42,207 nucleotides of DNA, from positions 1 to 42,207 of the IMG/VR virus record IMGVR_UViG_3300030430_003170; one strand, written 5' to 3'. This stretch comes from a virus. The notes beneath the pieces are model-generated. The model saw nothing but the letters and a program-made list of their open reading frames with translations, was not told the origin of the DNA and did not search any database. Positions 4,055-37,394 of this stretch are shown piece after piece; the stretch's first letter is position 1, and the number at the start of each line of letters is the position of its first letter. The position numbers and the translations under genes are program-made.

Positions 4055-4060
4055 TATACG
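4055..4060 (+). promoter_or_regulatory. TATACG -10-like box 6 bases before a start codon
   Basis: TATACG ends 6 bases upstream of ATG 4067. No Shine-Dalgarno sequence and no good -35 hexamer are seen. The spacing matches the boxes before 12218, 14667, 17509 and the minus-strand gene starting at 37128, so a leaderless transcript is possible. Confidence 0.3.
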
Positions 4061-4066
4061 CTTTTT

Positions 4067-4747
4067 ATGGCTAAAGTCATATTTAAGTGTTTTTTAAAAG
4101 AAGTCAAAGACAAATTTCCAATACAAAAAATATCAAGTAAAGACTTCAAATGGTTTGATAGAATGAATAAATTTTATCAAGATAATCCAAGGAAAGTTCA
4201 AACTAATAAATGTCCAGGTATTTTGAGCACTTTGCAAACAGGCTGGATTCAAAAAACTTATCAACCAATTACAATAACAACTAATGGTGACAAAAAAACT
4301 TTTAGTTGGCACACACCTTACAATCAAAAAAAAGGTGAGAACGGATTTTTAATAGACAATTATGTTTCAAGTCATGAATATGATCAGTTAGCAAAATTTA
4401 AAAATTTAGGTGATAGTGTCTTAGATACAGTAATCAAAATACAATCACCATGGAGAGTAATCATACCTAAAGATTATTATTTGTTATCCACTGCAATACC
4501 TTATAACGATGATGTAAATTTTACCGCAGCCACAGGATTATTAATGGGTGAAAACTTTTTAAATGTGCAGCTTTTTTGGCATAAATTAAAGGGTGATTAT
4601 ACTATACCATCAGGAACTCCTTTATGTTATTATCTCTTAATCAAAAAAGAAAAGTTTGATAGTGAAATAAGTATGTTGAATAATGAAGAAATTGATATTA
4701 TAAAACAGGATCAAATAAATTTTTTTAACAAAAAATTAAAATCATAA
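4067..4747 (+). CDS. DUF6065-like protein of unknown function
   Basis: A 226-residue soluble protein. The section at about residues 126-195 (IQSPWRVIIPKDYYLL, then a conserved TAATGLLMG and a segment on IPSGTPLCYYLLIKK) resembles the family I remember as DUF6065, which is scattered in phages and bacteria and has no known activity; the name is from memory. Aromatic residues and a central SWHTPYN motif suggest a beta-rich fold. It starts a new group after a 19-base gap and is followed without a gap by the peptidase gene. Confidence 0.6.
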   Translation: MAKVIFKCFLKEVKDKFPIQKISSKDFKWFDRMNKFYQDNPRKVQTNKCPGILSTLQTGWIQKTYQPITITTNGDKKTFSWHTPYNQKKGENGFLIDNYVSSHEYDQLAKFKNLGDSVLDTVIKIQSPWRVIIPKDYYLLSTAIPYNDDVNFTAATGLLMGENFLNVQLFWHKLKGDYTIPSGTPLCYYLLIKKEKFDSEISMLNNEEIDIIKQDQINFFNKKLKS

Positions 4748-10449: not shown

Positions 10450-11682
10450 ATGACATCAGCATACTCAACAGATTTAAAACTAGAATTAATGGTCACTGGC
10501 GAAAACGCTGGTACATGGGGTGATAAAACTAACACCAATTTAAATTTAGTACAACAAGCCATAGCTGGTTTTGAACAGGTAACACTATCAAGTGGTGGAA
10601 CTTTAGCACTTGCAATGACAAATGCTACTTTGTCAAACGCGAGAAACATGGTAATCAAATTTGCTACTGCTTCAATAGCATCTAGCACAGTTTGCACAAT
10701 ACCAGATGGAATAGAAAAATTTTATATTTTTGATTGCACAGGATTAACTAACCCTTCTAATTTAACAATTAAAACGGCTTCTGGAACTGGTTTCTCTCCA
10801 GACAGAGCAGCTATTTTTGCTGCATATGCAGACGGAACAAATTTAAAAGAAGTATCACTAGATACATTAGGTGGAACAGTAGCTGCTGCTCAAATAGCAG
10901 ATGATGCTGTAACCACTGCAAAAATTTCAAACGCAAACGTAACTACTGCAAAAATTGCTGACAATGCAATTACCACTGCTAAAATTTCAGCTTTACAAGT
11001 AACAGGTGCTAAAATGGCAGCTACAACTGTTACAATTTCTAAAATGGCAGCTAACTCTGTTGGACCTAATCAATTAGTAGCTACTGGCGTTACTGCTGCA
11101 TCTTACACAACTGCTAACATAACTGTTGACGCTGACGGTAGAATTACCGCTGCATCTTCAGGATCTGGTGGTGGAACAACTCAATTAACTTTCCAACAAA
11201 TGGATGCAGGAACTTACAGTTTTCAATCTCAACCTAACGCTACTAAAATTGGAGTTTATATAGCTGGCGGTGGTGGCGGATCAGGCTCACAGAGATCAGG
11301 TGGAGATGGTGGTTTTGGTATAAAATTTGTAGATATTACTGGACCTTACTCACAAAATTTAACTATTGGTGCTGGCGGTACTATGGTGCCTGCTCCAAAC
11401 CCAGGTCCTGGTCAAGCTGGACAAGCATCAACTTTTGGTGACCCATCAGTTTTAATAACTGCAAACGCTGGTAGTGGTGGACCACAAGCTTACTCACCAG
11501 GTTATGGCTCTCCAGGTAATTGTCCTGACAGTGACGTAGTTATGTTCAGAACAAACCCAGAAGCAATTTATGATTTTACTTTAAATCCTAAAACCGATTT
11601 CCCTAAAAAATTACCTGCAACAGCTACAGCTGCAGATGTTGACGGCAGAGACGGTTTCTGCATGATATACGAGACGTTTTAA
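10450..11682 (+). CDS. Tail fibre protein with 10-residue repeats and glycine-rich tip
   Basis: A 410-residue fibre-type protein. Residues 1-45 (SAYSTDLKLELMVTGENAG and GTWGDKTNTNLNLVQQAI) are a typical fibre N-terminus of marine phages. Residues about 147-206 carry six copies of a 10-residue repeat built on VTTAKI-like units, expected to form a triple-stranded shaft. The section 245-345 is Gly-rich (IAGGGGGSGSQRSGGDGGFG), as in glycine-rich adhesin tips, and the end is a compact domain. The tip probably binds the host surface. It is followed closely by a possible accessory gene. Confidence 0.75.
   Translation: MTSAYSTDLKLELMVTGENAGTWGDKTNTNLNLVQQAIAGFEQVTLSSGGTLALAMTNATLSNARNMVIKFATASIASSTVCTIPDGIEKFYIFDCTGLTNPSNLTIKTASGTGFSPDRAAIFAAYADGTNLKEVSLDTLGGTVAAAQIADDAVTTAKISNANVTTAKIADNAITTAKISALQVTGAKMAATTVTISKMAANSVGPNQLVATGVTAASYTTANITVDADGRITAASSGSGGGTTQLTFQQMDAGTYSFQSQPNATKIGVYIAGGGGGSGSQRSGGDGGFGIKFVDITGPYSQNLTIGAGGTMVPAPNPGPGQAGQASTFGDPSVLITANAGSGGPQAYSPGYGSPGNCPDSDVVMFRTNPEAIYDFTLNPKTDFPKKLPATATAADVDGRDGFCMIYETF
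10888..11067 (+). repeat. 30-bp coding tandem repeats in the tail fibre shaft
   Basis: Six imperfect 30-bp units encode the 10-residue repeat (for example AKISNANVTT, AKIADNAITT, AKISALQVTG). DNA similarity between units is only moderate, so the repeat is maintained mainly at the protein level. Confidence 0.55.
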
Positions 11683-12182: not shown

Positions 12183-12211
12183 TTTACAAAAATAATACAA
12201 TCGTATATAAC
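12183..12211 (+). promoter_or_regulatory. Sigma70-type promoter for the 2OG oxygenase cluster, probably leaderless
   Basis: TTTACA (12183-12188) and TATAAC (12206-12211) are separated by exactly 17 bases, each one mismatch from consensus. The -10 box ends 6 bases before ATG 12218 and no Shine-Dalgarno sequence is present, so transcription would begin at or next to the start codon. Confidence 0.6.
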
Positions 12212-12217
12212 AAACGT

Positions 12218-12796
12218 ATGTTATTCGACAAATACGTTTACATCCAAGATAATAAAATTGACCCTGAAATAATTGCAAAGTTAATTAAATTTTTAAACTT
12301 TGCTTACGAAAAAAAATGGTATCGAGAAGGTCAGATTTTTACAAATCAATCTGCTGCAAGCTTAATAAAAGAAATAAGAAACGTAGAAACTATGGGTCTT
12401 ACAAACTTACATGAATCATTAACTTTAAGTCATTGGGCTAATCTTGTAACTTATTACTTGAGTATATCAATAAATAATTATTGTCGTGTACACAAAGATG
12501 TGCCTGAAGCATCTATCAATGATATTCAAGCACTAAGATATGAAAAAGGTGGTCATTATAAATTACATATTGATGACGGCGGTAATACCTACAGAAGAAT
12601 AAGTCAAATATTATATTTAAATAATGATTATGAAGGTGGTAATTTAATTTTTGAATCCACAGATGGTAAGGATAAAAAAGTGGTTGAACCCAAAGCTGGA
12701 AGAATAATAACTTGGCCAAGTAATTTTTTATTTAGACATGGCATAGAGCCAATAACTAAAGGAGTAAGACATTCAATAGTATCATGGGCAGTTTAG
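12218..12796 (+). CDS. 2OG-Fe(II) oxygenase, PKHD-type (2 of 6)
   Basis: A 192-residue dioxygenase with a clear PKHD-like C-terminal half. Iron ligands are His117 and Asp119 in YKLHIDDGG and His174 in FRHGIEPI; Arg184 in GVRHSIVSW anchors 2-oxoglutarate. YLNNDYEGGNLIF (133-145) is the strand between them. The N-terminal 100 residues are helical. It opens a four-oxygenase cluster under its own promoter, so it may be expressed apart from the tail genes on either side. Substrate unknown. Confidence 0.9.
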   Translation: MLFDKYVYIQDNKIDPEIIAKLIKFLNFAYEKKWYREGQIFTNQSAASLIKEIRNVETMGLTNLHESLTLSHWANLVTYYLSISINNYCRVHKDVPEASINDIQALRYEKGGHYKLHIDDGGNTYRRISQILYLNNDYEGGNLIFESTDGKDKKVVEPKAGRIITWPSNFLFRHGIEPITKGVRHSIVSWAV

Positions 12797-13341
12797 ATAA
12801 ATACAAAGTAATTAAAAATTTTTTAACTAAAGAAGAACAAGAGTTGTTAAGATTTTATACAGTTATTAAACATAGAATTAATCAAAACGAATTTGATTTT
12901 CAGCAATGCAAAGGTTTACCCATGTTTTACGGAGATCCTATCATGGAAGCATTGATGGTACATAAGGCAGAAATTATGGAAAAAGAAACAGGTTTAAAAG
13001 TTTTACCAACTTATTCTTGTTGGAGGATGTATATTTTAGGAGCTGATTTAAAAAAACATAAGGACAGACCATCTTGTGAAATAAGTGTAACCGTTCAAAT
13101 AGCTTCATCGAGTAAGTGGCCATTATACATAGATGGTAATGAAATAACTTTAGAAGATGGAGATGCAGTAATTTACAGAGGTTGTGATGTTGAACATTGG
13201 AGAAACGAATATAAAAGTGATTATCATGCTCAAGTGTTTTTACATTATGTAGACAAAAATGGTCCTCATCGAAACAATTACAAAGATGGTCGACCTTTAT
13301 TTGGGTTACCAGCCTCAAAAAGGAATCAATTACCAGGATGA
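12784..13341 (+). CDS. 2OG-Fe(II) oxygenase-like protein, 2OG anchor not evident (3 of 6)
   Basis: A 185-residue protein overlapping the previous gene by 13 bases. Candidate iron ligands are His92 and Asp94 (LKKHKDRPS) and His138 (VEHWRNEY), with the typical strand EDGDAVIYRGCDVEH. Where the family usually has Arg or Lys about ten residues after the distal His, this protein has His148 (KSDYHAQVFLHYV), so 2-oxoglutarate may be held differently or the activity altered. The C-terminal 30 residues (GPHRNNYKDGRPLF) are an extension seen in phage members as far as I recall. Confidence 0.75.
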   Translation: MGSLDKYKVIKNFLTKEEQELLRFYTVIKHRINQNEFDFQQCKGLPMFYGDPIMEALMVHKAEIMEKETGLKVLPTYSCWRMYILGADLKKHKDRPSCEISVTVQIASSSKWPLYIDGNEITLEDGDAVIYRGCDVEHWRNEYKSDYHAQVFLHYVDKNGPHRNNYKDGRPLFGLPASKRNQLPG

Positions 13342-13559
13342 AGTTTAGACAAAGCAAAGAAGATGGATCTTGTGATTTAATTTTTTCAGACGAAGAAATT
13401 GAATCTTTAAATAAAAATAAAAAATTACATTTTACTCCAGAAACTTTAAAAACTTTTGGTAATGTTTTAGTTCACATGGTTGGTACTTTTAATTCAAATT
13501 TTAAAGAAGAACTACAAAACAAAATGACTAAACCCGATGAGAAAGTTAATCTTAAGTAA
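13338..13559 (+). CDS. Small protein within the oxygenase cluster
   Basis: A 73-residue soluble protein with a beta-like start (MKFRQSKEDGSCDLIFSDEE) and helical remainder ending in a charged tail. Start and stop both overlap oxygenase genes (4 and 23 bases), so it is translated as part of the cluster. It could be a partner or regulator of the enzymes; nothing more can be concluded. Confidence 0.6.
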   Translation: MKFRQSKEDGSCDLIFSDEEIESLNKNKKLHFTPETLKTFGNVLVHMVGTFNSNFKEELQNKMTKPDEKVNLK

Positions 13560-14055
13560 ATATATACAAAAACCAATAGAACAAGAAGTTTTATTTTATT
13601 CAGGAAAAATAGAAACTGATGCTAAATATTTCATAGATAAGATTGAGCAGGGTATAAAACATAAAGAAAACAAAAATTATGTAACTAACGTAAAAGGTCA
13701 AATGACCGATTGGAAATATTTTTTAGATGACAAATATTTTATTGAATTGGTTACTGACATATTTAAATCAGCGAATGTTATGCACAAAAACCTACCATCT
13801 TGTAGATTAACAGATGCTTGGGGTATTAAGTTACAACCACATGACCATACAAATATTCATGATCACAGGCCTAACTTATACTCTGGTGCTATTTATTTAA
13901 CACCTAGTAATCAACACTTAGAGTTTCCTGAAATCAATATTACATTAAAACCTGAAGTAGGTGAGTTTGCTTTGTTTAGTTCTTTTTTAAAACACTTTGC
14001 AACTAAAGGCTCTGATAAAGCTATTAAATATGGACTATCTTTTAACTTAGGATGA
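13537..14055 (+). CDS. 2OG-Fe(II) oxygenase, group-5-like with HxH site (4 of 6)
   Basis: A 172-residue protein. The segment HDHTNIHDHRPNLYSGAIYL (102-121) corresponds to the region of Fe2OG_Oxy_5-type enzymes in which HxHP is followed by a SGxxYL strand; ligand candidates are His108 and His110. The distal ligand is His153 (FLKHFATKG), with Lys161 or Lys164 in place of the usual Arg. The C-terminal SFNLG strand is typical. Use of HxH in place of HxD is known in this group. Substrate unknown. It overlaps the next gene by 4 bases (ATGA). Confidence 0.75.
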   Translation: MRKLILSKYIQKPIEQEVLFYSGKIETDAKYFIDKIEQGIKHKENKNYVTNVKGQMTDWKYFLDDKYFIELVTDIFKSANVMHKNLPSCRLTDAWGIKLQPHDHTNIHDHRPNLYSGAIYLTPSNQHLEFPEINITLKPEVGEFALFSSFLKHFATKGSDKAIKYGLSFNLG

Positions 14056-14636
14056 AAAATTCAAATGTCGATACCTTGATGAGATCTTGGTATATTGATA
14101 CAAAAATCTGCGATCAAATATTACTATGGGCTGATAACAATGATCATCTCTATCATGATGTAAAACTTGAAAGACCAAATAAAAAGATTGAGTATGATAA
14201 ACGGGAGATTAATATTTCAAGTAATGATTTCTCCAAGCCATGGTATTTTTATAGGAAAGCTTTAAATAGTTGTGCAGCAGAATATATAAAACAGTTGCCA
14301 CATGTAAATTTTGTTTTTCACACAGACATTGTAGAACCTTATAATTTACAACATTACAAACCTGGACAAGGTTTCTATAATTGGCACTGCGAAAACAATG
14401 GAACACCTAATCATCTAAGAAAAAGAAATTTAGTATTTATGACTTATCTAAATGATGTTGAAAAAGGTGGCACAGAGTTTTACCATCAAAACCTAACAGT
14501 GCCAGCCAAGAAAGGCTTAACTTTAATTTGGCCTGCATACTGGACTCATACTCATAGGGGTCAAATAACAAAAATAGACCATAAATACATAGTAACTGGT
14601 TGGTATAGCTTTTTAGATAAAGAGCCAAGTCTATAA
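14052..14636 (+). CDS. 2OG-Fe(II) oxygenase with HxE site (5 of 6)
   Basis: A 194-residue dioxygenase. His112 and Glu114 (YNWHCENNG) occupy the HxD position as an HxE variant, followed by the strand LVFMTYLNDVEKGGTEFY. The distal His is 168 (THTHRGQ) and Lys178 (DHKYIVTGWYSF) takes the 2-oxoglutarate anchor position, exactly 10 residues later. HxE sites occur in some active members of this superfamily. It closes the cluster and is followed by a new promoter box before the gp10-like gene. Confidence 0.85.
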   Translation: MKNSNVDTLMRSWYIDTKICDQILLWADNNDHLYHDVKLERPNKKIEYDKREINISSNDFSKPWYFYRKALNSCAAEYIKQLPHVNFVFHTDIVEPYNLQHYKPGQGFYNWHCENNGTPNHLRKRNLVFMTYLNDVEKGGTEFYHQNLTVPAKKGLTLIWPAYWTHTHRGQITKIDHKYIVTGWYSFLDKEPSL

Positions 14637-14654
14637 ATCACACTAGAACTTTAG

Positions 14655-14660
14655 TATAAT
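14655..14660 (+). promoter_or_regulatory. TATAAT box 6 bases before the gp10-like gene
   Basis: A perfect TATAAT ends 6 bases upstream of ATG 14667 and no Shine-Dalgarno sequence is present. No convincing -35 hexamer is found at 16-18 bases. The spacing repeats the arrangement at 12206-12218. Confidence 0.45.
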
Positions 14661-14666
14661 GACAAT

Positions 14667-16841
14667 ATGCCTTTATCAAAAGTACGTATAGTCCCAGGTT
14701 TTGACAAACAAGCTACTCCAGCAGAAGCTGAAGGTAGATGGGTTGATGGTGACAATGTTAGATTCAGATATGGTGAACCAGAAAAAATTGGTGGTTGGAG
14801 TGCACTTACAGAAAATACTATAGTTGGTGCAGCTAGAGCTCAACACGTTTGGTCCAATACAGATGGTAAAAAATTTGCTGCGATTGGCACTGATAAAGTT
14901 TTAATTATTTATTATGCTGGTGCTTTCTATGATGTAACACCTTTAGAAACTGACAACTTCTCTACAGGAGCAAGTATAACAACGACCAACGGATCAGCTA
15001 CTGTTACTATAACTACTTCAGCATCACACAATTTAGAAGTTGGAGAGTTAACTACTTTTGCTAATGCAGCTTCTTTTACATCTGCTAATACAGACTACAC
15101 TGCTGCAGATTTTGATGATCAAGTTTTTGAAGTTCAATCTGTTCCTACTATAACAACTTTCACAATTACAATGCCATCAGCAGAATCTAAATCTGGTGTA
15201 ACAACTGATGGATCATTAGATGTTAGACCTTACGAACCAGTTGGACCACTCAATCAAACTTTTGGTTATGGTTGGGGGACTTACTTATGGGGTGGTAGGA
15301 CGGTTGCTCAAGTAACAACAACTATGAACAATGGTGGAGCTTTACTAGTTGGTGGCTCTTCTGTAACTCTTACTAGTGCCACTAACTTTCCAACCTCTGG
15401 AACTATTAGAATTGGTTCTGAGGACATTACTTACTCAGGTAAAAACAGCAATGAGTTAACTGGTTTAGGTCGTGGAGCTAACGGCACAACACCAGCAGAG
15501 CATTCCGATGGATCAACCGTTACTAATATTTCTGATTACGTTGGCTGGGGTGATGCTTCAACATCCAGTAATGTAACCATAGATCCTGCCAATTGGTCAT
15601 TAGATAATTATGGTAATTTACTTATAGCTACAGTTCACAACGGTCGAACTTTTACTTGGGATGCGTCAGCAACAAATGCTTTAACTACTAGAGCTACTAT
15701 AGGAACAGGCATGCCTACTAGGTCTGTAATGACAATGGTCTCTGATAGGGATAGACACTTATTTCATTTAGGAACTGAAACAACCATAGGAACTCCATCC
15801 ACACAAGATAAAATGTTCATAAGATTTTCTGATCAAGAAAGTTTAACCGATTATGCACCTACATCAACTAACACTGCAGGGACTTTTAGATTAGATGATG
15901 GAACACAAATTATTGGTGCCATCAAAGGTAAAGATTATATTATAGTTTTAACTGACACTGCATCATATATAGTTCAGTTTGTTGGACCACCTTTTACTTT
16001 TTCTATTCTTAAAGTAGGTTCGAATAATGGTATGATTGGACAACATGCGGGAATCTTTGCAAACGGTGCTGTTTATTGGATGGGTAAAACAGGCGGTTTT
16101 TATGTCTATGACGGAACTGTAAAATCATTACCTTGTTTAGTAGAAGATTTCGTATTTACAACAAACGGTAACAACCCTGGAATAAATTATACTTCTGGTC
16201 AATTAGTATATGCAGGTATAAATGAATTATATTCTGAAATAAATTGGTTTTATGCTACTGCAAATTCACAAGTTGTAAACAGATGTGTAACCTATAACTT
16301 TGCTGAAAATGTTTGGACAACTAGCACATTGGATAGAACTACATGGGTTGGATCTACCGTGTATGAACAACCTTATGCAACAGATTATGAATCTTCAATA
16401 ACGCCAACTTTTCCAACTGTAAATGGTGTTTCAGCTGGTGCTTCAATTTATTATCAACATGAAATAGGTGTGAATCAAGTAAATACTGATCAGTCATCAA
16501 CTGCAATACCAGCGTTTATAAAATCTGGTGAATTTGATTTAAATGGTAATTCAGGAGTACCTGGTGATGGTGAATTCTTGATGAGTATTAGTAGATTTTT
16601 ACCAGACTTTAAACGTATTAGTGGTAACGCAAAAGTTACTATTTTCTTGAACTCTTTTGCTCAAGGATCTGTAGCTGCATCAAGTCCATTAGGACCATTT
16701 ACTATAAGTTCTAGCACCACTAAAGTAAACACAAGAGCAAGAGCAAGATTTGCTGCTGTGCAAATCGAAAACGAAAGTTTAGACGAGAGTTGGCGATATG
16801 GCACTTTCAGATTTGATGTAAGAGTGGATGGTAGAAGATAA
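14667..16841 (+). CDS. P22 gp10-like tail hub / DNA stabilisation protein
   Basis: A 724-residue protein. The start (FDKQATPAEAEGRWVDGDN, then VRFRYGEPEKIGGW) is the signature of gp10-like packaged-DNA stabilisation proteins, which close the portal-adaptor channel and connect the tail. The middle is beta-rich, with blocks such as LLIATVHNGRTFTWD, DRHLFHLG, IIGAIKGKDYIIVLTD and GAVYWMGKTGGFYVYDG consistent with a propeller-like fold. An insert at about residues 95-300 carries Thr/Ser-rich strands and a GYGWGTYLWGG motif resembling the WG motifs of the protein at 8974. The C-terminus contains FRFDVRVDGRR. Confidence 0.8.
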   Translation: MPLSKVRIVPGFDKQATPAEAEGRWVDGDNVRFRYGEPEKIGGWSALTENTIVGAARAQHVWSNTDGKKFAAIGTDKVLIIYYAGAFYDVTPLETDNFSTGASITTTNGSATVTITTSASHNLEVGELTTFANAASFTSANTDYTAADFDDQVFEVQSVPTITTFTITMPSAESKSGVTTDGSLDVRPYEPVGPLNQTFGYGWGTYLWGGRTVAQVTTTMNNGGALLVGGSSVTLTSATNFPTSGTIRIGSEDITYSGKNSNELTGLGRGANGTTPAEHSDGSTVTNISDYVGWGDASTSSNVTIDPANWSLDNYGNLLIATVHNGRTFTWDASATNALTTRATIGTGMPTRSVMTMVSDRDRHLFHLGTETTIGTPSTQDKMFIRFSDQESLTDYAPTSTNTAGTFRLDDGTQIIGAIKGKDYIIVLTDTASYIVQFVGPPFTFSILKVGSNNGMIGQHAGIFANGAVYWMGKTGGFYVYDGTVKSLPCLVEDFVFTTNGNNPGINYTSGQLVYAGINELYSEINWFYATANSQVVNRCVTYNFAENVWTTSTLDRTTWVGSTVYEQPYATDYESSITPTFPTVNGVSAGASIYYQHEIGVNQVNTDQSSTAIPAFIKSGEFDLNGNSGVPGDGEFLMSISRFLPDFKRISGNAKVTIFLNSFAQGSVAASSPLGPFTISSSTTKVNTRARARFAAVQIENESLDESWRYGTFRFDVRVDGRR

Positions 16842-17005
16842 TGGCTAGAATAGTTATACAATTACCAGAACCAGCTAGTGAATACTCTACAGATAATCAA
16901 AGACAAATTTTACAGGCTTTAAGAACTTTGCAACAGCAATTGAATTTTTCTTTTACAACTGATATTAAAAACGAACAAAATAGTTTTAACTATTTTTTAA
17001 TGTAA
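16841..17005 (+). CDS. Small coiled-coil protein, 54 residues
   Basis: The ATG overlaps the gp10-like stop (ATAATG) and the frame stops at 17005, overlapping the next start. The sequence has a short strand (ARIVIQLPEP) then a helix with QRQILQALRTLQQQL, followed by a Phe/Asn-rich end. Such short helix-rich proteins after tail genes can be minor tail components. Coding is supported by the seamless overlaps on both sides. Confidence 0.55.
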   Translation: MARIVIQLPEPASEYSTDNQRQILQALRTLQQQLNFSFTTDIKNEQNSFNYFLM

Positions 17006-17349
17006 TGACTATACAATATAAAAATCAAGGTTTTACTTTAACGACCACAAGCACTGTTAGTGTTTTGACAGCTAACACTAGCTCAACAGTGCTAGTTAAA
17101 CAAATACAAGCATCTAACGGTTCTGGATCATCCGCTATTTCGTTGGTAACGCAAGTGACTGATACCTCAGCTAGTGCAACCTTTAGAATAGGTAATCAAT
17201 CAATAGCAGCTTCTTCAACCACAGATATAATAAATCAAACCTTAGTATTAGAAGCTGGTGATGTAATTAAAATGACAACTGGCACTGCGAACGAAATACA
17301 AGGTATTATATCATACGCACAATTAGATAGATCACAGGAAAATGGCTAA
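17005..17349 (+). CDS. Small beta-rich virion-type protein
   Basis: A 114-residue protein made of alternating strands rich in Thr, Ser and Val (FTLTTTSTVSVLTANTSS, then TVLVKQIQASNGSG and ATFRIGNQSIAASST). It resembles the protein at 184-507 in size and character, so both could be small decoration or fibre-tip proteins. A strong hairpin is embedded in codons 16-30. It overlaps both neighbours. Confidence 0.65.
   Translation: MTIQYKNQGFTLTTTSTVSVLTANTSSTVLVKQIQASNGSGSSAISLVTQVTDTSASATFRIGNQSIAASSTTDIINQTLVLEAGDVIKMTTGTANEIQGIISYAQLDRSQENG
17050..17093 (+). other. Extended RNA/DNA hairpin inside a coding sequence
   Basis: AGCACTGTT (17050-17058) pairs with AACAGTGCT (17085-17093), and directly inside AGTGTT (17059-17064) pairs with AACACT (17074-17079). 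Together they give 15 base pairs with a 9-base loop and a 5-base bulge on the 3' side. An alternative helix, ACTAGC (17077-17082) with GCTAGT (17091-17096), excludes the main fold. Confidence 0.5.
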
Positions 17350-17479
17350 AAGAAATAGATTCGGCGTTAACACATACGTAAAGCGAACTCGTCCTAAAAT
17401 AGGTAGACACAAAAAGCGTATGAATAAAGCGGAGAAAAGAACACACAAACCAACAATCGGCCAGGGTAAACCATTGTAA
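17342..17479 (+). CDS. Small arginine/lysine-rich protein
   Basis: A 45-residue, very basic protein (AKRNRFGVNTYVKRTRPKIG followed by RHKKRMNKAEKRTHK) that starts 8 bases before the end of the previous gene. The same kind of sequence is, as far as I recall, common in marine phages next to tail genes. Charge suggests nucleic-acid or virion binding. The gene sits at the end of the tail group, before the promoter of the glycosyltransferase group. Confidence 0.6.
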   Translation: MAKRNRFGVNTYVKRTRPKIGRHKKRMNKAEKRTHKPTIGQGKPL

Positions 17480-17498
17480 AAAGATAATAATTATTGTA

Positions 17499-17504
17499 TA
17501 TAAT
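17499..17504 (+). promoter_or_regulatory. TATAAT box 4 bases before the glycosyltransferase group
   Basis: A perfect TATAAT ends 4 bases before ATG 17509. A weak -35-like TTGTAA (17474-17479) lies 19 bases upstream of the box, longer than ideal. No Shine-Dalgarno sequence separates box and start codon, which again suggests a leaderless transcript. Confidence 0.45.
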
Positions 17505-17508
17505 TTAC

Positions 17509-17685
17509 ATGACCGTTTATCACAAAGTTAAGTGCACCACTAAAACAATCTATAGAAGTAAGAAGTCAGGTAAAAAATACGATACAAAAGAAGAATTTTT
17601 AAAAGAAAATCCAATTGAAGATATTGCATCAGATGTAGTTGTTCAGGTGCCTGATTTACCTATATTTAGTAAAACTAAAAAATGA
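17509..17685 (+). CDS. Small protein preceding the glycosyltransferases
   Basis: A 58-residue protein. I chose ATG 17509 because it directly follows the TATAAT box; a TTG at 17494 is inside the promoter. It contains VKCTTKTIYRSKKSGKKYDT and a Pro-rich, acidic end. The pattern SGKKYDTKEEFLKEN is like short zinc-free domains in phage proteins, but no family is certain. Its stop overlaps the glycosyltransferase start by 4 bases. Confidence 0.55.
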   Translation: MTVYHKVKCTTKTIYRSKKSGKKYDTKEEFLKENPIEDIASDVVVQVPDLPIFSKTKK

Positions 17686-19466: not shown

Positions 19467-20576
19467 ATGTTACAATTTTTACCATACGCATTAGCAGCTT
19501 ACGGAGGATATAGAGGTTATAGATCAGGAAGAGATGCTGGTGCTTCTGGTTTACAAAGTATTTTGCGAGGTGCGACTGGAGCTTTCTTAGGATATCAAGG
19601 TGGTCAAATGGTGCCTGGTGTTCAAGCAGCAGGTTTCACACCATTCACACAAATACCTGCAGTAGCAGCATTAGGTCAAAGATTTCCAACTTTAGCTGGC
19701 ACAACTATGGGTGGTGGAGATCCAAATATGATTACAGGCGGCACAATGGGTCGTATGCCAGTTATGGCTGGTACGGGAGATATTGCAAATCCAATGTCAT
19801 TTAGAAACATGTTAAATGTTGCAGGACCAAATCTTGTTGATAATAGAAATATGAATAATGTTAACAATCAAGGTGGCATGATGGATTTATTTAATAAATT
19901 GTTAAGAAGAAAAAGATTCGTAGATGGTGTAAATACAGGAGAAATGGAATTCAGTCCTGGTAAAGTTGCAGCTGCAATCGGTATTGGATCATATCTAGGT
20001 GGTGTCTTTGATAAAGAACCTCAAGACATTTATACTCCAACATATAATTTAGCAGTAGCAGAATTACAAAAACAACGAGGTGGTTTTAAATACATTGATG
20101 CTGAGACTGGTGTAGAAAAAGTTTATGATCAACCATATATACCAGAAGCGGATCCTAGAAACAGAGGCGACTTGCAAATAGGACCTTACGCAGTTAGCAG
20201 ACAAAGATTAAAAGAAGGTGGTCTTGCAGAGATTAAAAAATTCAATACAGGTGGAGTAAATTATTTACCAAGTAAAAGAACACATGACGAAGATGATGCA
20301 AACAATTATGTAAGAGCATCTGGATACGTTGAGGATGGTTCAGGTACAGGTAACAAAGACGAAGATACAATGTTAGCTCAATTAGCAGACGGAGAGTTTG
20401 TAACAAGAGCAGATGGAGTATTAGGTGCGGGAATCATAGCTGGTGCTAGTCCTAATAGCATTAAAGATATGAGAGAAAAAGGTGCTGAATACTTCTACAA
20501 TCAACAAAGACGATATAAAAGAGTCTTTGATTTATTACAAAAAGGTAGAAATGCACAAGCACAAGCTCAATCGTAA
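19467..20576 (+). CDS. Virion-associated protein, first of the internal virion group
   Basis: A 369-residue protein. The N-terminal 60 residues are Gly/Ala-rich (LAAYGGYRGYRSGRDAGASG) with weakly hydrophobic helices, then a low-complexity Asn/Gly/Met region (about 80-135). The C-terminal region has DTMLAQLADGEFVTRADGVLGAG, a motif seen in phage internal virion or tail-associated proteins of marine podoviruses. It precedes a GNAT-like protein and three ejection-type proteins, so a role in DNA delivery is likely. Confidence 0.6.
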   Translation: MLQFLPYALAAYGGYRGYRSGRDAGASGLQSILRGATGAFLGYQGGQMVPGVQAAGFTPFTQIPAVAALGQRFPTLAGTTMGGGDPNMITGGTMGRMPVMAGTGDIANPMSFRNMLNVAGPNLVDNRNMNNVNNQGGMMDLFNKLLRRKRFVDGVNTGEMEFSPGKVAAAIGIGSYLGGVFDKEPQDIYTPTYNLAVAELQKQRGGFKYIDAETGVEKVYDQPYIPEADPRNRGDLQIGPYAVSRQRLKEGGLAEIKKFNTGGVNYLPSKRTHDEDDANNYVRASGYVEDGSGTGNKDEDTMLAQLADGEFVTRADGVLGAGIIAGASPNSIKDMREKGAEYFYNQQRRYKRVFDLLQKGRNAQAQAQS

Positions 20577-36763: not shown

Positions 36764-36944
36764 TATTTACTGCAAGATCATTATGAGCATCTTCTAAATT
36801 TTGCTCATTAATTTTTCTTTTAAGATCTTTGATCTTAATATCAATCCACTTCATATCTGTTGTGACTTTACCCTGTCTCAACGCTTGGTTCGCCCATCTG
36901 GACTCCAGCTGAAGTTTCTCCGATATCAACTTCTGTAGTGCCAT
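36759..36944 (-). CDS. Small helical protein of the minus-strand islet
   Basis: A 61-residue, mostly helical protein (LQKLISEKLQLESRWANQAL then IKIKDLKRKINEQNLEDA), probably a coiled coil. A strong ribosome binding site (AGGAG) precedes the ATG, and the gene overlaps its upstream neighbour by 77 bases, unusually long, with the start inside that gene's 3' end. The overlap suggests translational coupling. Function unknown. Confidence 0.55.
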   Translation of the reverse strand: MALQKLISEKLQLESRWANQALRQGKVTTDMKWIDIKIKDLKRKINEQNLEDAHNDLAVNS

Positions 36945-37128
36945 TTTTTAGCTCCTCATAAGTTATGTAGACTCTATCGCTATAATAGAAGCCTTCATAT
37001 TTACCTTTGACCTCACCATTTTTCAGTTTTTCAGCAAACTGTCGTAAAGCCTCAGTATCGTTTTGAGCTACTACTATCCCATCAAAATACCAACCTTCTG
37101 ATCGTATCTGTATTCGATAGCGGCTCAT
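36868..37128 (-). CDS. Small alpha/beta protein of the minus-strand islet
   Basis: An 86-residue protein with a clean N-terminal fold pattern: YRIQIRSEGWYFDGIVVAQN, then a helix (DTEALRQFAEKLKNGE) and strand (YYSDRVYITYEEL). It is preceded only by a promoter with TATAAT 5 bases before the ATG and no Shine-Dalgarno sequence. The C-terminal 25 residues are polar and overlap the next gene. Function unknown. Confidence 0.55.
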   Translation of the reverse strand: MSRYRIQIRSEGWYFDGIVVAQNDTEALRQFAEKLKNGEVKGKYEGFYYSDRVYITYEELKNGTTEVDIGETSAGVQMGEPSVETG

Positions 37129-37133
37129 GAGAG

Positions 37134-37163
37134 ATTATATAGCATAATGTGGGTACAATGCAA
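37134..37163 (-). promoter_or_regulatory. Minus-strand promoter giving a probable leaderless transcript
   Basis: On the minus strand TTGCAT (plus 37158-37163) and TATAAT (plus 37134-37139) are 18 bases apart, and TATAAT ends 5 bases before the ATG at 37128. This repeats the plus-strand arrangement seen before 12218, 14667 and 17509. Confidence 0.55.
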
Positions 37164-37165
37164 CC

Positions 37166-37378
37166 CTATGTTTCTGAGATTTGTGTACAAGCATATTTTG
37201 TGGCTAAAAGCTTGTTGTCTACTAGATCTTGATCCATGTTTCGTATGAGTTTTGTAGATTCTATGTGAGCCGCATAAACGCATTCTTTCCATGTATCAAA
37301 TTTTGTTGGATATTGAAAGCCCAGAGTACAGGTGCCATCAAAAAAAGAACACACGTATAACGTTAATATAAACTTCAT
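37166..37378 (-). CDS. Small secreted-type protein, first of the minus-strand islet
   Basis: A 70-residue protein; I start at ATG 37378, which has GGGAG 5 bases upstream, rather than three codons earlier. It begins MKFILTLYVCSFFDGTCTLG, with a hydrophobic start and Cys pair, and later has Cys at about 33 and 66. Similar small proteins with a hydrophobic N-terminus and four cysteines are, as I recall, common in marine phages. A short signal-like sequence is possible. Function unknown. Confidence 0.55.
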   Translation of the reverse strand: MKFILTLYVCSFFDGTCTLGFQYPTKFDTWKECVYAAHIESTKLIRNMDQDLVDNKLLATKYACTQISET

Positions 37379-37394
37379 ATCTCCCATTTAGTCC

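Follow-up and report, generated by a model that had tools for sequence, protein, structure and literature searches.

Two gene families of HTVC023P-like pelagiphages keep a promoter box directly before the start codon, as expected of leaderless genes

Introduction

Leaderless genes are already known from bacteria and their phages. In bacteria, ‘TA-led’ genes carry a TATAAT-like signal some 10–12 bp before the start codon and have no Shine–Dalgarno (SD) sequence (Zheng et al., 2011, PMC3160421), and cellular genes of Deinococcus–Thermus whose −10 region adjoins the open reading frame have been tested experimentally for leaderless expression (PMC12340547). Phage transcripts have been described as often leaderless (PMC5312081); one case is the lambda cI repressor gene, whose leaderless state has been demonstrated by experiment (PMC3160421, PMC9031893), and the cluster O mycobacteriophage promoters PL1, PR2 and PL2 are predicted, across five related phages, to start at the first codon (PMC4351075). 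A literature search that left most subscription journals outside its scope returned no report of leaderless promoters in pelagiphages.

Here we describe two genes, starting at positions 14667 and 37128 of a 42,207-base virus record (GC 33%; ‘the window’ throughout, meaning this whole stretch of DNA), whose promoters appear to abut the start codon. Both gene families have a −10-like box about 10–12 bp before the start codon, and thus resemble the TA-led genes, as described, in signal distance and in the lack of an SD sequence; the TA-led genes, however, are a genome-wide feature of bacteria (PMC3160421), whereas the present case concerns just two genes in a single phage group. The position of the −10 beside the start codon and the proposed leaderless expression are shared with the Deinococcus–Thermus genes (PMC12340547), but at the pelagiphage loci a −35-like element is conserved together with the box. 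As with lambda cI, a phage gene would have a leaderless mRNA, although cI encodes a repressor and its leaderless state was established directly (PMC3160421, PMC9031893). The cluster O promoters, in turn, belong to actinobacterial phages, unlike the pelagiphage group considered here (PMC4351075).

Results and discussion

The window and its boxes

The nearest annotated relatives of the window's structural protein (14667) and DNA polymerase (34506) are the pelagiphages HTVC023P and HTVC027P, which are the best isolate matches, and the record 023Pt_psg01. The window also carries 2OG-Fe(II) oxygenases and ferrochelatase-like proteins, a cargo reported for HTVC023P-type phages (PMC9599517). Judged by gene homology and cargo, it is a relative of the HTVC023P-type pelagiphages, a common ocean phage group, and because of this kinship its host is probably SAR11.

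The original prediction placed TATAAT-like boxes shortly before five start codons, and all five are indeed found there (Table 1). No SD-like run precedes any of these starts, again as predicted, and the companion statement that SD sequences are often present at internal genes agrees with their occurrence at 277 of 814 other starts in related phage loci, or about one-third. Taken by itself, the window is a weak case against chance, and the comparison with relatives decides. Among its 60 starts, four exact TATAAT boxes lie at gaps of 0–40 nt (counted from box to start codon), three of them at gaps 4–6; boxes matching at least five of six positions are no richer at gaps 4–6 than at other gaps, and scanning the first 20 kb for promoters in general gave 88 sites against 86.4 expected. 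A contrasting arrangement is seen at 19467, where an exact TATAAT lies 28 nt before the ATG and is followed by an AAGGA SD word, as in an ordinary leadered promoter.

Table 1. Boxes, promoter elements and genes in the window; gap, nucleotides between box and ATG.
Feature	Position	Strand	Remarks
Weak box TATACG	4055–4060	+	gap 6 to ATG 4067
Box TATAAC	12206–12211	+	gap 6 to ATG 12218
Candidate promoter	12183–12211	+	TTTACA (12183–12188)-17-TATAAC (12206–12211); starts directly after upstream stop codon; gap 6
2OG-Fe(II) oxygenase	12218–12796	+	first gene of cargo run
−35-like TATAAA	14632–14637	+	17 bp before −10 box; overlaps upstream gene's stop codon; family TTTAAA-like there
−10 box TATAAT of 14667 gene	14655–14660	+	gap 6 to ATG 14667; exact TATAAT at gap 5–7 in 69/81 loci
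6-nt discriminator, box to start codon	14661–14666	+	last base pyrimidine (T)
Virion structural protein, phrog_3287	14667–16841	+	proposed +1 is the A of the ATG
Doubtful promoter of 17509 gene	17474–17504	+	TATAAT (17499–17504), gap 4, or TTGTAA (17474–17479), 17 bp, TATATA (17497–17502), gap 6
Box TATAAT	17499–17504	+	gap 4 to ATG 17509
−35-like TTGCAT	37158–37163	−	two bases past upstream gene's stop codon; GGGTTG invariant in family
−10 box TATAAT of 37128 gene	37139–37134	−	gap 5 to ATG 37128
Discriminator CTCTC, 5 nt, all pyrimidine	37129–37133	−
86-aa protein, unknown function	36868–37128	−	proposed +1 is the A of the ATG

Conservation at 14667 and 37128

Surveying the box-to-start distance in relatives, the check proposed with the original prediction, separates the five boxes: box, distance and upstream elements are kept at 14667 and 37128, far above chance, while the boxes at 4067 and 12218 fail and that at 17509 is doubtful. 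At the two conserved starts there is, moreover, neither an SD sequence nor a likely alternative start codon.

The 14667 gene, whose product is named a stabilization or constituent protein in related records, was compared across the window and the best 80 of at least 600 matching IMG/VR stretches (81 loci, 66 distinct 40-nt upstream sequences). In this set an exact TATAAT precedes the ATG at gap 5 in 46 loci, gap 6 in 22 and gap 7 in one, with a close variant of the box in nine more and none in three. TATAAT at gaps 4–7 occurs in 56 of the 66 distinct upstream sequences, against a mean of 0.85 and a maximum of 4 in 200 shuffles. When 62 distinct rows are aligned on the box, T is found at −23 in 58 and A at −20 in 49, and the T and G of an extended −10 in 56 and 52, giving a family promoter with a TTTAAA-like −35, a 17-bp spacer, TATAAT and the extended −10 TGn, for which the window's own copy has TAG. 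A 4-base SD-like word is present in four of the 66 upstream sequences, compared with 277/814 at other starts. On the protein tree the gap has changed at least 18 times and is still 5–7. The N-terminal codons are weakly informative, with pN/pS of about 1 for codons 2–8 and 0.36 for codons 9–14. Of five related phage records outside IMG/VR, HTVC023P alone carries a box (TAAAAT, gap 5); none precedes the homologues in HTVC027P, 023Pt_psg01, DSL-LC04 and CRP-901, and 023Pt_psg01 has an SD-like AGGAG there.

The gene immediately upstream of 14667 varies by locus. Across 74 loci (seven of the 80 relatives had too little upstream sequence to be included), it is ferrochelatase-like in 28, an oxygenase of the 13537 type in 17 and something else in others; in four it is reversed, leaving 54–96 nt for a promoter, and three of these four keep the box at gap 5 (the fourth, L026, has none). 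These changing and reversed neighbours suggest that the promoter would restart transcription just 3′ of a slot of changing cargo genes, and so keep the structural gene running whatever cargo occupies that slot.

At 37128, on the minus strand, 36 family loci were found; two partial loci were dropped, and the 34 with the start present, together with the window, make 35. Every one of the 35 has its box at exactly gap 5 (TATAAT in 28, TATACT in seven), and TATAAT occurs in 19 of 23 distinct upstream sequences against a shuffled mean of 0.14. The family promoter has a TTGTAT-like −35, an 18-bp spacer and TATAAT, with GGGTTG invariant upstream, and none of the 23 distinct rows contains a 4-base SD word. 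The two small genes here (36868–37387, minus strand) are separated by 37 nt, from the stop codon of the first to the start of the 37128 gene, and this interval holds the complete promoter; the counterpart pair in HTVC023P (gp10, gp09) overlaps by 4 nt and has no room for a promoter between. The 86-aa product has no match in PHROGs or Pfam.

The arrangement sets these two genes apart from other families. We compared 40 in-register gene families, each with eight or more members among the collected relatives. TATANT at gaps 5–6 reaches a frequency of 1.00 in the 37128 family (n = 28) and 0.90 in the 14667 family (n = 59); no other family exceeds 0.11, so these two alone show the box-at-start pattern. 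Likewise, 50 of 73 TGnTATA[AC]T sites with an open reading frame within 40 nt lie at gap 5 or 6, and all 50 belong to the 14667 gene except one at a 54-aa gene (L351). A TANNNT motif at gap 5 from the 17005 gene (frequency 0.55) was set aside, as it looks, by eye, like the coding sequence of the preceding gene.

We also considered SAR11 itself as the source of the pattern and rejected it: among 743 called genes (800 kb, three SAR11 genomes) there is no sharp TATAAT peak at gap 5–6. TGnTATAAT-N4-8-ATG occurs at about twice the frequency of its reversed control in eight SAR11 genomes, so leaderless expression may exist at a few host genes. For strict TTGACA promoters close to an ATG the numbers are too small for comparison (2 of 12 SAR11 genomes; across the phylum, 2 of 60).

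The boxes at 12218, 17509 and 4067

The leaderless reading originally proposed for these three starts does not gain the support found at 14667 and 37128, as neither box nor spacing is kept in relatives in the same way. We lean slightly towards the view that all three are TATA-like words due to chance, the genome being AT-rich, in keeping both with the unexceptional frequency of 5/6-match boxes at gaps 4–6 in the window and with the scarcity of these boxes beyond near-identical relatives. The 12218 box is retained in two identical (100%) relatives among 25 of 80 loci examined, with a TATAAT at gap 7 before the homologue in L035, and the 4067 box is present in three relatives of 98–100% identity and absent from the other 15 (18 of 24 loci examined). 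Against chance, TTTACA-17-TATAAC before 12218 makes a good −35/−10 pair, and the 17509 family (55 of 59 loci used; 33 distinct) holds TRTANT at gap 8 in 23 of 33 rows, though TATAAT at gaps 4–8 in only two of 33. For 17509 in the window, TTGTAA-17-TATATA-6-ATG fits better than the box with the 4-nt gap, although this assignment is doubtful.

An open reading frame for a 45-aa basic protein lies at 17342–17479, too short for the ORF list, which starts at 60 aa; its counterpart in relatives is a conserved 44-aa gene. In three loci (L312, L314, L319) the 17509 homologue follows a small basic gene, and the interval from that gene's stop codon to the ATG contains a perfect, operator-like palindrome, TTTAGTATACTAAA. 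Judged by eye, the TTGACA promoters of small genes starting at 11280 and 11832 in HTVC027P (L202) show possible operators in their −10 region, namely palindromes such as ATAGGATAGTCCTAT or AGGATAATCCT.

Where transcription would start

At both conserved starts the hexamers are separated by a distance within the 16–18 bp of sigma-70 promoters (17 bp at 14667, 18 bp at 37128). We consider it very likely, from the sequence comparisons above, that the boxes are −10 elements of sigma-70 (RpoD-type) promoters: the host's main sigma factor would read them, RNA polymerase would initiate on the A of the ATG or no more than a base from it, giving an mRNA that lacks both a leader and an SD site. Start sites are preferentially at position 7 after the −10, on a purine that follows a pyrimidine (PMC5730371), and gaps of 5–7 place the A of the ATG at positions 6–8. 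If transcription starts 6–7 nt after the box, the A of the AUG becomes the first base, which makes a leaderless mRNA the best reading. The base before the ATG is a pyrimidine in 63 of 66 rows at 14667 and in 23 of 23 at 37128, as against 391 of 814 other starts; an in-frame stop lies upstream of the ATG in 61/66 and 23/23, and an internal start with an SD sequence occurs in 1/66 and 0/23. Together with the start position, these features make it most likely that the message begins at the AUG; recognition by the host polymerase and translation from a 5′-terminal AUG are proposed with it. The pyrimidine is a supporting sign only, because other families (at least 95% pyrimidine in six of 40, including these two) and leadered starts phage-wide are equally pyrimidine-rich.

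Several observations weigh against the leaderless reading. With a gap of 5 the A falls at position 6, whereas position 7 is preferred; pyrimidine-rich discriminators also favour downstream starts (PMC5730371), so at 37128 transcription could begin inside the codon. The missing box in L026, behind a reversed upstream gene, and in four of the five related records, the overlapping gene pair of HTVC023P and the lack of a bulk peak in SAR11 point the same way. It is conceivable, then, that the promoters are real but that transcription starts 1–3 nt away, leaving a leader of 1–3 nt or a partial AUG, with near-leaderless translation or a start elsewhere. The variation of the gap between 5 and 7 and the several-base window of start-site choice (PMC5730371) would suit such an offset, but we think it quite unlikely, given that SD-bearing internal starts are almost absent and that the pyrimidine before the ATG has been kept despite repeated changes of gap and base: on the 14667-family tree this base changed at least 20 times, only three of them between pyrimidine and purine.

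Readings in which the boxes are not host promoters at all fare worse. That the genes are read as part of an operon from promoters upstream, the AT-rich element at the cargo junction serving as a signal for translation or recombination, would agree with a same-strand upstream neighbour in 70 of 74 loci at 14667; yet a −35-like element at 17 bp and an extended −10 are conserved along with the box, most loci with a reversed upstream gene (three of four) keep it, and a read-through message would have no SD in 62 of 66 cases, so that we regard this as very unlikely. Equally improbable, in our view, is recognition by a phage-specific polymerase or sigma factor. The T4-type late promoter is TATAAATA, with ATA after TATAA; this A-T-A extension is absent here, the base after the 14667-family box being mixed (A 23, C 16, G 7, T 16; n = 62), and the −35-like and TG elements point to sigma-70. 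The phage could carry a factor of its own, and some of its small genes are unannotated, but no RNA polymerase or sigma factor was found among the proteins searched (about half of the genes).

Short box-to-start distances in other phages

IMG/VR was scanned twice for TTGACA-17/18-TATAAT with an ATG no more than 30 nt away, the ATG being part of the search pattern; this gave at least 235 loci and at least 331 sites (L447–L681) in phages of unassigned host; the figures that follow hold among the matches listed. For 192 sites, an ATG that opens 50 codons or more follows within 60 nt, and the first such ATG is at gap 4–8 in 54, 9–17 in 18 and 18–40 in 95. The distribution of distances is two-humped, with the short-gap class peaking at gaps 6 and 7, and an anagram control gave three of 41 at gap 4–8 compared with 54 of 192 (Fisher p 0.004). 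The genes behind the 54 short-gap sites belong to 42 families, among them DNA polymerase, DNA primase and clamp loader. A phage-wide signature of a pyrimidine before the ATG was tried and discarded, as it does not separate leaderless (41/54) from leadered (78/109) sites, and SD absence in the gap 4–8 class, being partly forced by the short interval, was excluded as evidence. No box at gap 4–8 precedes the T4-like DNA polymerase in eight named-record upstream sequences, and Melnitz has a leadered promoter there.

A bolder extension, which we judge unlikely as a whole, is that leaderless sigma-70 promoters would be a second standard gene start of phages, accounting for about one-quarter of strong consensus gene-adjacent promoters. 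HTVC023P-type phages might then keep them at chosen genes, even though in SAR11, the likely host, leaderless genes leave no bulk signal, perhaps because the altered ribosome pool of an infected cell favours 5′-terminal AUGs.

Significance

Gene callers that seek an SD sequence will misplace or doubt starts of this kind, and the distance from box to ATG is a strong sign for promoter searches in uncultured phages. The two-humped distribution in IMG/VR makes the leaderless share of phage genes testable at scale. Leaderless phage genes as such are not new; what the conserved upstream sequences suggest here is that evolution would keep them at two particular genes of the pelagiphages.
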